Positions 9,554 to 23,395 of a DNA stretch of 61,325 nt are shown piece after piece. The number at the start of each line of letters is the position of its first letter. Position 1 is the stretch's first letter. Under the pieces are notes generated by a model. That model ran no database searches. It was not told where the DNA came from and saw nothing but the letters and a program-made list of their open reading frames with translations. Both the position numbers and the translations under genes were made by a program. Source of the stretch: Microvirga lupini (GTDB lineage Bacteria > Pseudomonadota > Alphaproteobacteria > Rhizobiales > Beijerinckiaceae); NCBI GenBank assembly GCA_000517005.1, contig KI912045.1:263279-324603 (forward strand). Reading direction: 5' to 3'.

Positions 9554-9997
9554 CTAACCCTTGCTCGGAACGATGGCCGTCGCTTCGATCTCGAGCCGGG
9601 CAGCCTTTTCCACGAGCCGCACGACCTGAACGAGAGCCATGGCCGGGTAATGGGTGCCGAACACGTCGCGGTAGGCACGGCCCAATTCGCGGAGATTGGC
9701 GAGGTACTCGTCGATATCGACCACATACCAGGTCAGGCGCACGAGATGCCGGGGTTCGGCTCCTCCTTCGGCCAGAATGGCGCAAATGTTCATGAAGATC
9801 TGATGGGCCTGGGCGACGAAGCCGTCGGCGAAGGTTTCCGTCTCGTCCCAGCCGACGATGCCGCCCGTCACCAGAACCCTGCCCTCGGCCATCATGCCGT
9901 TGGCATAGCCCTTGGGCGTCCGCCAGTGCTTCGGGTTGAGGACCTCCGGCCCATCATCAATGCCAGGCATGGGAGTGCCTTCGAAAGCGGCTGTCAT
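9554..9997 (-). CDS. RidA/YjgF-family protein in aryl-CoA locus
   Basis: A 147-aa RidA-fold protein with the family core VLVTGGIVGWDE, HLVRLTWYVVDIDEY and LEIEATAIV. RidA proteins hydrolyse enamines and imines and release ammonia. The arginine that binds the substrate carboxylate in canonical members (the PAR of FPARS) is Met120 here (YPAM), while the EIEA acidic motif is kept. Canonical 2-aminoacrylate deaminase activity is therefore doubtful. As last gene of the aryl-CoA operon it may act on an enamine whose carboxylate is masked as a CoA thioester; this is inference. GGGAGA precedes the ATG. The gene begins 14 bp after the acyl-CoA dehydrogenase stop. Confidence 0.85.
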   Translation of the reverse strand: MTAAFEGTPMPGIDDGPEVLNPKHWRTPKGYANGMMAEGRVLVTGGIVGWDETETFADGFVAQAHQIFMNICAILAEGGAEPRHLVRLTWYVVDIDEYLANLRELGRAYRDVFGTHYPAMALVQVVRLVEKAARLEIEATAIVPSKG

Positions 9998-10011
9998 TGT
10001 TATGTCTCCCT

Positions 10012-11220
10012 TTATTGACCGGACACTGTGTCGAGATCCCCGGAGCGCTGTGCCTCCAGCAGCTTCACGAGTTCGCGCGCGATCACGACCTTCTGGACCT
10101 CGGTGGCACCCTCGTAAATGCGCAGGGCGCGGATCTCCCGATAGAGTTCCTCGACTTTCACGCCCTTGGTGACGCCAAGACCGCCGAAGATCTGCACGGC
10201 CTTGTCGATGATGCTCTGCGCCGCTTCCGTCGCGTACATCTTCGCCATGGCGGCCTCGCGCGTCACGCGCGGCGCTCCCTGGTCCTTGGTCCAGGCCGCG
10301 CGATAGACGAGGAGCGCGGCGCTGTCGACGCTGGTCGCCATGTCGGCGAGGGAGGCTTGTGTCATCTGCAAATCGCTGAGCGGCGCTCCGAAGAGCTTGC
10401 GCGAGGATGCATGCCGCAAGGCCTCGGTCAGAGCGCGTCGGCCCAGGCCGAGCGCCGCGGCTCCGACCGTCGAGCGGAACACGTCGAGCGTCGCCATGGC
10501 GACCTTGAAGCCTTCTCCCGGACCGCCGATCCGCTTCGCGAGCGGCACGCGGCAGGCCTCGAACCGCAAGGTCGCGAGCGGATGGGGCGCAATGACATCG
10601 ATGCGGCTCTCGATGCTCAATCCAGGCGTTTGCGCATCAACCACATAGGCGGACAGGCCTTTCGCGCCAGGCGCCTCGCCCGAGCGGGCAAAGACCACAT
10701 AATGATCCGCAATGCCCCCATTGGAGATCCAGGTCTTCACGCCGTCGATCAGCACATGATCCGGCCCGTCCGGCGTGGCCGTGGTGCTCATGGCCGCCAC
10801 ATCCGAGCCGGCCTCCGGCTCCGAGAGCGCAAAGGCCGCGATGGCATCTCCCCGCGCCACCGGCGGCAGGTATTGCTCCTTGAGCGCATCCGAACCGAAC
10901 AGGGTAATCGGTCCCGTGCCGAGACCCTGCATGGCAAAGGCAAAATCCGCCAGGCCCTCGTGCGAGGCAAGGGTTTCCCGCGCGAGGCACAGGGTGCGCA
11001 CATCGAAGGACGGTGAGATGCCGCCATAGGCCTGAGGCACGACCGCCTTGAGCCATCCGCCTTCGCCCAAGCGGCGTACGAGGCGGCGGCACGAGGCATC
11101 CACGTCGTGATGATCGACAAGAGGTTTGATCTCCCTTGCCGCCCAGGCGTTCAGGTCACCGGCAAACTGGCGATGACGGTCCTCGAAGAACGGCCAGGAG
11201 AGAAAGCTCGCATCGATCAC
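10012..11220 (-). CDS. Acyl-CoA dehydrogenase family protein
   Basis: An FAD enzyme of about 402 aa that would introduce a 2,3-double bond in an acyl-CoA or a cyclic CoA thioester. Family landmarks are [16 protein letters not shown] (flavin/substrate loop), [18 protein letters not shown], the [11 protein letters not shown] helix and a C-terminal [19 protein letters not shown] containing the usual catalytic Glu (IYEG). I chose GTG 11220, one base after the hydratase stop with GGGAGA upstream; the open frame extends further but only as overlap. Within the operon it fits a beta-oxidation-like step on the dearomatised ring. Confidence 0.9.
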
Positions 11221-11221
11221 G

Positions 11222-21864: not shown

Positions 21865-22562
21865 TGCTCTCCGTCCGACAGCTTCAGGCGTCCTATGGCG
21901 CTGCACAGGTCCTCTTCGACATTTCGATCGAGGTCAATGCCGGCGAAGTGGTGACGCTGCTCGGCCGCAACGGCATGGGCAAGACCACCACCATACGCTC
22001 CATCATGGGCCTGCTCCGCCCCCGTGGCGGCGAGGTACGCTTCGATGGTGCAGTTGTGACGGGACTCGCCCCCTATCGGATTGCGCAGACCGGCATCGGC
22101 CTCGTGCCGGAAGGCCGGCAGATCTTTCCGACGCTGACGGTGGAAGAGAATCTTGTTGCCACGGCATCGGCCAGAACAGGCTCCCGCCGCTGGACGCTCG
22201 ATGCGGTCTACGACCTGTTCCCGCGCCTGAAGGAGCGGCGCGGCAACCTGGGCACGCAGCTCTCCGGCGGCGAGCAGCAGATGCTGGCCATCGGCCGCGC
22301 ACTCATGACCAACCCGAAACTGCTCATCCTCGATGAGGCCACCGAGGGATTGGCGCCGCTGATCCGCGCCGAGATCTGGGCCTGCCTCAAGCGCCTCAAG
22401 GGCGAACGTCAGTCGATCCTGGTGATCGACAAGAACATCGGCGCGCTGGCGACCTTCGCCGATCGTCATGTGATCATCGAGAAGGGCCGCTCGGTCTGGA
22501 CCGGAACGAGCGAGGAACTCATGACCGACACCAGCCTCAAGGACCGGTATCTGCACGTTTGA
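21864..22562 (+). CDS. LIV-type ABC transporter ATP-binding protein (LivF-like), aryl-CoA locus
   Basis: A 232-aa ATPase of the LivF branch: Walker A GRNGMGKTTT, signature QLSGGEQQMLAIGRA, Walker B LLILDEATEGLAPL and a switch region ILVIDKNIGAL. Two replacements are notable: the Walker B motif reads DEATEG rather than DEPT, and the switch position has Lys (VIDKN) where His or Gln is usual. The catalytic Glu is kept, so it is probably active. The hydrolase gene follows after 11 bp. Confidence 0.88.
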   Translation: MLSVRQLQASYGAAQVLFDISIEVNAGEVVTLLGRNGMGKTTTIRSIMGLLRPRGGEVRFDGAVVTGLAPYRIAQTGIGLVPEGRQIFPTLTVEENLVATASARTGSRRWTLDAVYDLFPRLKERRGNLGTQLSGGEQQMLAIGRALMTNPKLLILDEATEGLAPLIRAEIWACLKRLKGERQSILVIDKNIGALATFADRHVIIEKGRSVWTGTSEELMTDTSLKDRYLHV

Positions 22563-22573
22563 GGACAGCCGCG

Positions 22574-23395
22574 ATGGCAGCCGAAGAACTCGACCTGGAG
22601 GCCGAGTACAACAACCGGGCGCGCGTTCCCGAACACCCCGTTCATATCGCGGGCTGGCAGCGGGATTCCGCCGCCTATCGCGAGAGCGCGCGCTGCGACC
22701 TGGATCTCGCCTATGGACCCGGCGAACGACAGCGGCTCGATCTCTTCTATCCACAGAGCGGCGATGCCGGCCGGCCGGTTGTCTTGTACATTCATGGCGG
22801 CTACTGGCAGGCGCTCGACAAATCCACGTCGAGCCACTTGGCGCGCGGCGCCAACGAGCGCGGACTGACGGTCGCGATCCCGAGCTATACGCTCGCCTCT
22901 GCCGCCAAACTCGCCGACATCGTCTCCGAGATCGAGGCCGCGGCCAATTTCGTCATGGAGCGCATGGGCCGCCCTCTCATCACAAGCGGTCATTCGGCCG
23001 GCGGACATCTGGCGGCATGCCTCATGGCCCGCCCGGACAATTTACGGATACCTGTCCGCGCCGCCATGCCGATTTCCGGTCTGTTCGACCTGCTCCCGCT
23101 GGTCCCGACCTCGCTCAACAAGGCTCTCGGTCTCACGGTCGAGGAGGCGCATCGCATGAGTCCGCTGGAGTGGGATCCGCCAAAAAGCGGACGTCTCATC
23201 GCGGTGGTTGGCGGGGCTGAGAGCAGCGAATTCCTGCGCCAGTCTCATGCAATCGTCGAGCACTGGGGCCAGGCGGGCATTGCAACGGAATACCATGAAG
23301 TGTCCGATGCTCACCATTTCGACGTCGTCGCCGGTCTTGCCGACCCGAATGACCCGCTTGTCGACATGCTCATGGAGCTGGCATCGGTCGCGTGA
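22574..23395 (+). CDS. Arylformamidase-like alpha/beta hydrolase
   Basis: An alpha/beta hydrolase of about 273 aa. The HGGYW at residues 74-78 is the oxyanion-hole motif of animal-type kynurenine formamidases, the nucleophile elbow is GHSAG with Ser141, and a C-terminal DAHHFDVV supplies the likely catalytic His. Such enzymes split N-formylkynurenine or related aryl formamides to a free aromatic amine and formate. As last gene of the transporter operon it may produce anthranilate from N-formylanthranilate or a related imported compound; this is inferred from its neighbours. A general esterase is the alternative. ATG 22574 has GAGGACAG upstream. Confidence 0.8.
   Translation: MAAEELDLEAEYNNRARVPEHPVHIAGWQRDSAAYRESARCDLDLAYGPGERQRLDLFYPQSGDAGRPVVLYIHGGYWQALDKSTSSHLARGANERGLTVAIPSYTLASAAKLADIVSEIEAAANFVMERMGRPLITSGHSAGGHLAACLMARPDNLRIPVRAAMPISGLFDLLPLVPTSLNKALGLTVEEAHRMSPLEWDPPKSGRLIAVVGGAESSEFLRQSHAIVEHWGQAGIATEYHEVSDAHHFDVVAGLADPNDPLVDMLMELASVA

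Follow-up and report, generated by a model that had tools for sequence, protein, structure and literature searches.

The window analysed here is a stretch of 61,325 nucleotides from Microvirga lupini (contig C114 of its 9.63 Mb genome, G000). It contains two divergent arms of genes: the minus-strand arm encodes, in this order, a CoA ligase, a fusion of an FAD monooxygenase with an old yellow enzyme (OYE) domain, a short-chain dehydrogenase/reductase (SDR), a MarR-family regulator, an enoyl-CoA hydratase, an acyl-CoA dehydrogenase and a RidA-family deaminase, and the plus-strand arm encodes the LIV-type transporter LivJHMGF followed by an alpha/beta-hydrolase with an HGGYW motif (Table 1). We propose, at a probability of roughly 0.7, that this is a MarR-controlled cluster for the catabolism of anthranilate, in which the hydrolase serves as a serine-type kynurenine formamidase in the breakdown of tryptophan. 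LivJHMGF would import an aromatic acid or amino acid, tryptophan 2,3-dioxygenase (KynA, encoded on another contig) would make N-formylkynurenine, the hydrolase would remove its formyl group, and a kynureninase-like enzyme dependent on pyridoxal 5'-phosphate (PLP), the gene of which lies beside kynA, would yield anthranilate for the CoA route. The ligase would then convert anthranilate to anthraniloyl-CoA, the fusion protein would hydroxylate and reduce the ring, RidA could help to release ammonia from the resulting amino-oxo-cyclohexene-carboxyl-CoA, and the SDR, hydratase and acyl-CoA dehydrogenase would carry out beta-oxidation-like steps.

The proposed formamidase activity of the hydrolase is supported by gene linkage and by the presence pattern. 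Among 48 Microvirga genomes, which are related to each other, so that the counts are not independent events, tryptophan 2,3-dioxygenase was found in 43, the fusion in 42 and a match to the hydrolase (at 1e-25) in 42. All 41 genomes with both kynA and the fusion have the hydrolase (36 strong matches and five divergent ones at 35–39% identity), while it is absent from the two genomes with kynA only and from the four with neither gene. The sole genome with the fusion but no kynA (G070) has just a 34% match, located on another contig; there the cluster and the transporter are kept, and livF is followed not by the hydrolase but by the beginning of an ABC-ATPase-like frame, at which the stretch (L177) ends. 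The hydrolase gene lies within 10 kb of the fusion gene in 38 of 42 Microvirga genomes, including all five with the divergent variant; the exceptions are G070, two genomes with the genes on separate contigs, and G211, where a 51% identical hydrolase is encoded 45 kb from the fusion in a neighbourhood with neither gene set. In Microvirga pudoricolor (L037) the PLP enzyme, kynA, the hydrolase, the transporter, the ligase, the fusion and the rest are united in a single locus. In what is apparently the same genome (G215, locus L138) kynA follows the hydrolase inside the cluster, at a distance of 64 bp; among 43 Microvirga genomes no other has this pair within 10 kb. A genomic link to tryptophan 2,3-dioxygenase, as expected of a serine-type kynurenine formamidase, is therefore present. 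In a wider family sample of 199 genomes, a hydrolase match at 1e-40 accompanies kynA and the fusion in 30 of 41 cases, and the hydrolase and fusion genes co-localise within 20 kb in 13 cases (six of them Microvirga), against 0.4 expected by chance if genes were placed at random in a 4.6 Mb genome.

An earlier note on this DNA, made from its letters alone, had tied a formamidase to the CoA route and suggested a comparison of gene neighbourhoods. Within Microvirga this comparison did not reveal the lack of conservation that would speak against such a tie: the gene order from RidA to the hydrolase was seen in 26 of the 29 loci kept, one of the others (L014) ending before the hydrolase slot and two (L038 and L082) having no hydrolase in the stretch covered. 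In L031–L033 the slot after livF is occupied by a divergent member (34–38% identity) that groups with the hydrolase of Paracoccus kondratievae, which suggests that a different branch of the family has supplied a replacement at this position.

Outside Microvirga we read closely 12 plasmid regions (from two plasmid searches) and 20 + 14 genome stretches, chosen from match lists rather than at random. In eight of the 12 plasmid regions a hydrolase homologue shares one stretch with kynurenine genes, the fusion, or both: with the fusion, kynA and kynU in Marinovum, Ensifer and Shinella, with the fusion and kynA in Ruegeria, with kynA and kynU in Aminobacter and Azospirillum, and with the fusion only in Paroceanicella and P. 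kondratievae. The Chelatococcus and Variovorax regions contain a homologue with neither kynurenine genes nor the fusion in the stretch read, and plasmids pAL1 and pRLCBG43 encode other alpha/beta-hydrolases, which we take to be Amq and AqdA, respectively. The most compact arrangement was found in genome G027 (L156), as a same-direction run of fusion, SDR, enoyl-CoA hydratase, acyl-CoA dehydrogenase, RidA, KynU, KynA and hydrolase. As it is tryptophan 2,3-dioxygenase and kynureninase that keep recurring beside members of this hydrolase family, intracellular N-formylkynurenine is the better candidate for its substrate.

The sequence of the hydrolase is compatible with this role. Among solved structures, the protein comes nearest to a putative thioesterase and "Lipase 1", followed by kynurenine formamidase; it matches the animal kynurenine formamidase (4e11/4e14/4e15) with an E-value of 2.5e-19 and 24% identity, and the predicted fold is shared across 264–265 residues. 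The alpha/beta fold, the HGG motif (within HGGYW, residues 79–83) and a Ser-acid-His triad typical of the serine-type enzymes are all present, the acid residue being Glu according to the alignment, as opposed to the Asp used by animal kynurenine formamidases. The NCBIfam and Pfam matches of the hydrolase include no cyclase family, which places it outside the KynB class (TIGR03035). It is related to NF058665, the "hormone-sensitive lipase" family of HaHSL, and the Ser-Glu-His triad is the one proposed for HaHSL in the available part of its description (PMC6921082), where that protein is characterized as an esterase and the main text makes no mention of kynurenine. Six of seven kynurenine-linked members scanned pass the cut-off of NF058665, as does the fusion-linked member from Paroceanicella. 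A lipase name suits such neighbourhoods poorly, and we suggest that it is probably misleading for a family with some members in the vicinity of kynA and kynU.

No match to KynB (TIGR03035) was found in the genome of M. lupini, and only one of the 199 genomes of the family sample has one above the cut-off. The possibility that a KynB encoded at another site of the genome is the true formamidase was rejected on this ground; the genome does encode two PF04199 proteins. Canonical KynU (TIGR01814) is above the cut-off in none of the 48 Microvirga genomes, with one sub-threshold match, and a KynU protein query returned two weak matches (25–26% identity) in them. In all 43 Microvirga genomes that possess kynA, no more than 200 bp separate it from a gene for a PLP enzyme, and in 25 of the 26 family genomes that have the PLP gene the distance is at most 2 kb. 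This protein has no NCBIfam match at 1e-5; it has the Pfam KYNU_C (kynureninase C-terminal) domain above the cut-off, among solved structures it matches kynureninase best (1qz9, E-value 7e-7), and a profile comparison with five KynU proteins gave a probability of 92.9, based on shallow alignments. The lysine, Asp-x-x-His and C-terminal arginine motifs line up, and we presume that these residues have the corresponding catalytic roles; a single-sequence structure model (pLDDT 38.6) was not used. Relative to the bacterial KynA-KynB-KynU pathway, kynA is thus retained and the same steps are proposed, whereas the serine hydrolase and the divergent PLP enzyme are the putative replacements for KynB and KynU. 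Kyn and abm genes are listed together for Cupriavidus metallidurans in the accessible part of one report (PMC8879955).

The ligase and the fusion protein can be assigned, with support from sequence comparisons, to the aerobic 2-aminobenzoyl-CoA (abm) pathway, in which ligation to CoA is followed by hydroxylation and reduction of the ring and by beta-oxidation-like steps, and which is reportedly encoded by the abm clusters of Azoarcus evansii. The best structural match of the ligase is an anthranilate-CoA ligase (4wv3, 361 bits, as compared to at most 271.5 bits for benzoate-CoA ligases). It is 54% identical to the ligase of pAL1, the gene of which adjoins that of the pAL1 fusion, and both share the motif FTFGLGG. 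FTFG was found in 11 of 11 aligned ligases, while two benzoate-CoA ligases shown have FAYG at this position, presumably a part of the substrate pocket. The fusion combines FAD_binding_3 and Oxidored_FMN in one chain, as the monooxygenase-OYE enzyme of that pathway does, it shares 54% identity with its pAL1 counterpart, which comes from an anthranilate degrader, and genes for beta-oxidation-like steps adjoin it and the ligase. According to the part of the study available, the ligase of Arthrobacter sp. Rue61a, which we take to be the pAL1 ligase compared here, produced anthraniloyl-CoA when expressed in Escherichia coli, and anthranilate, but not salicylate, supported growth of the strain (PMC3534580). 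A gene for RidA lies near the anthranilate-CoA genes of pAL1 too, whereas the SDR/hydratase/dehydrogenase set, MarR and the LIV transporter accompany them here, and the HGGYW hydrolase belongs to a different clade than the pAL1 hydrolase. The earlier note's choice of the 2-aminobenzoyl-CoA route is thus supported. The name of the NCBIfam model that the fusion passes (NF006101) suggests instead a salicylyl-CoA 5-hydroxylase and a cluster that degrades salicylate. We consider this very improbable and have set it aside: the pAL1 fusion carries the same name in a strain with the growth pattern just described, the ligase is nearest to an anthranilate-CoA ligase, and 27 of 29 Microvirga loci retain RidA, which is expected for an amino substrate and accords with the removal of an amino group.

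The two arms appear to be regulated together. A search for 22-bp inverted repeats in the window, which the earlier note had not reported, gave two matches versus none expected by chance, one upstream of the fusion gene and one in the divergent gap between the ligase and livJ. The gap copy was found in all 26 alignable Microvirga gaps. A matrix was built from 27 gap sites (that of the window included), so that only the fusion-side sites provide an independent test; of the 27 Microvirga loci scanned with it, 24 have such a site of at least 20 bits, and L024, L026 and L027 fall below 20 bits. In the Bradyrhizobium loci scanned, weak to strong sites precede several cluster genes. The occurrence of one palindrome in two copies at two promoter regions, and its recurrence in Microvirga, supports the single regulon that had been postulated from the gene layout, and the MarR protein is the likely ligand of both copies. 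In a different Microvirga genome (G231, L143) a 21-bit site of this palindrome, at position 10509, lies about 60 bp upstream of kynA.

Two other roles of the hydrolase deserve consideration. The earlier note had assumed that the transporter imports an aryl formamide, for example N-formylanthranilate, and that the hydrolase deformylates it directly to anthranilate. In favour of this, the hydrolase gene runs in the same direction as livF, whose stop codon is overlapped by the first start codon possible for the hydrolase, and the homologues from Chelatococcus CO-6 and P. kondratievae likewise follow a LIV transporter, with no kynurenine gene in the stretch covered. Indole breakdown has been proposed to pass through N-formylanthranilate, and in an indole degrader the use of anthranilate reportedly depends vitally on a 2-aminobenzoyl-CoA cluster (both in the available portion of PMC6221969); we found no paper that joins formylanthranilate, an amidase and anthranilate in a literature search mostly outside subscription journals, and do not claim its absence from print. 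A further point in favour is the 34% identity to the pAL1 hydrolase, which we take to be an N-acetylanthranilate amidase. The recurrence of kynA and kynU as partners of the family and the absence of the hydrolase from the cluster of G070, which lacks kynA although it retains the transporter, make this origin of the substrate unlikely. The formamidase type and the conserved position beside the cluster in Microvirga are supported, and N-formylkynurenine is a better fit than an imported substrate.

A slightly less likely alternative still, in our opinion, is that the hydrolase acts broadly on aryl esters or acyl amides and frees anthranilate from its methyl ester or its N-acyl derivatives. In favour of this, HaHSL, a relative, has been described as an esterase with promiscuous activity on short-chain substrates (PMC6921082), and on pAL1 and pRLCBG43 the presumed Amq and AqdA genes, respectively, lie no more than approximately 15 kb from those of the anthranilate-CoA route. 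The pAL1 protein, however, falls outside the clade of the window hydrolase on a long branch, the pRLCBG43 protein matches at 30% identity over half the length, and neither explains the co-occurrence with kynA. In the tree, N-terminal ends were trimmed, 12 of 26 hydrolase-bearing Microvirga loci were omitted as near copies, and the labels were assigned by hand (that of L117 being confirmed), with L132–L134 labelled "neither" on account of their short flanks even though they are Microvirga orthologues.

Several observations weigh against a kynurenine formamidase in this cluster. The hydrolase scores 240 bits and the kynA-linked orthologue from M. pudoricolor 234 bits, below the cut-off of NF058665 (320 bits) and hence outside the family as defined, and in the tree the window hydrolase branches apart from the kynurenine-linked members that pass it. 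The absence of canonical KynU above the cut-off belongs here as well. In M. lupini kynA and the PLP gene are located on contig C106, away from the cluster, in an assembly listed with 6% contamination, and no palindrome of at least 20 bits was found in the kynA stretch; a scan of seven Microvirga kynA loci gave one directly before kynA in L143 alone (21.4 bits). In the family sample, no hydrolase match at 1e-40 was obtained for 11 of the 41 genomes that carry kynA and the fusion; G023, G077 and G133 are among them even though kynA or a kynA-like gene lies within 20 kb of the fusion. Linkage within 20 kb is lacking in 38 of the 51 genomes that have hydrolase and fusion (present in 13) and in 23 of the 30 that have hydrolase and kynA (present in seven), with contig breaks contributing to these counts. 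Finally, nine neighbourhoods of homologues with 50–58% identity from sister genera (L144–L152) contain neither gene set (by reading, ABC transporters of the peptide type are encoded in several, and a binding protein resembling LivJ in one), and in Bradyrhizobium/Tardiphaga the hydrolase occurs in only five of 51 loci, alongside another ligase. On these grounds the activity cannot be transferred by similarity alone.

All open reading frames of the gene set named earlier are open at the positions in Table 1, and the family assignments were confirmed by profile matches, except for LivH, whose matches are below the cut-offs, and LivG and LivF, which were recognized by reading. The closest relatives of the fusion protein are from Microvirga, with identity of up to 96%.

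Table 1. Genes and sites of the cluster (positions in the window), with the kynA-linked PLP enzyme.
Feature	Position	Strand	Basis of assignment
RidA-family enamine/imine deaminase	9554..9997	-	PF01042, 65 bits
Acyl-CoA dehydrogenase	10012..11232	-	PF00441/PF02770/PF02771; every NCBIfam match below cut-off
Enoyl-CoA hydratase family protein	11222..12064	-	NF006107, 463.3 bits (cut-off 330)
MarR-family regulator	12055..12564	-	PF01047; proposed to bind both palindromes
SDR-family dehydrogenase	12567..13334	-	PF00106/PF13561
FAD monooxygenase/OYE fusion, 2-aminobenzoyl-CoA monooxygenase/reductase type	13336..15690	-	NF006101, 1154.6 bits (cut-off 1078)
Perfect 22-bp palindrome, probable MarR operator	15718..15739		about 28 bp upstream of the fusion start codon
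Probable anthranilate (2-aminobenzoate)-CoA ligase	15793..17448	-	TIGR02262 (benz_CoA_lig), 381.8 bits (cut-off 375.25); best PDB match 4wv3
Second palindrome copy	17629..17650		two mismatches; ligase/livJ gap
LivJ, LIV-type substrate-binding protein	17832..19016	+	PF13458; best PDB match 4evq
LivH, LIV permease	19156..20076	+	TIGR03409 (urea) and LIV LivH models, below cut-off
LivM, LIV permease	20085..21116	+	PF02653 (BPD_transp_2)
LivG, ABC ATPase	21109..21864	+	reading (Walker A visible) and synteny only
LivF, ABC ATPase	21864..22562	+	reading and synteny only
HGGYW alpha/beta-hydrolase, probable serine-type kynurenine formamidase	22559..23395	+	Pfam alpha/beta-hydrolase match; triad Ser146-Glu221-His253 by alignment
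Divergent kynureninase-like PLP enzyme	10332-11525 of L137 (contig C106)		beside kynA

Some variants of the cluster were noted in passing. The SPM-x-MY motif in the OYE domain of the fusion has Asp at its variable position in 29 of 29 Microvirga loci and Cys in 51 of 51 from Bradyrhizobium/Tardiphaga; we assume that this is the site of the redox-tuning Cys of YqjM. In one Bradyrhizobium locus (L086, 12502-14228) an additional FAD monooxygenase of the PRK07538 family and a cupin are encoded between the fusion and livJ, and their relatives are present also in the clusters of Paroceanicella, G019 and G059. The five Bradyrhizobium loci with a hydrolase of 49–54% identity (L078, L081, L086, L087 and L089) have an alternative ligase (57–58%) in place of the usual one (74–77%). 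On the Chelatococcus CO-6 plasmid (L121, 6386-13573) the LIV transporter and the homologous hydrolase lie beside genes annotated as 3-hydroxyanthranilate 3,4-dioxygenase and aspartate dehydrogenase.

There is, in our judgement, an even chance that Microvirga and its kin have replaced both later enzymes of the kynurenine pathway, KynB by a serine hydrolase and KynU by a divergent kynureninase encoded beside kynA, with the hydrolase wired into the MarR regulon and, in the genus, kept only together with both kynA and the cluster; in that case NF058665 would for the most part consist of bacterial kynurenine formamidases. The pathway itself is known, and the wiring of a serine-type formamidase and a divergent kynureninase would be a new variant of it, as judged from sequence. 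If this is true, two missing steps of tryptophan breakdown, those of the formamidase and the kynureninase, would be filled in a genus of soil bacteria, the misleading lipase label of a curated family would be corrected, and the catabolism of tryptophan would be joined to the CoA-dependent anthranilate route.

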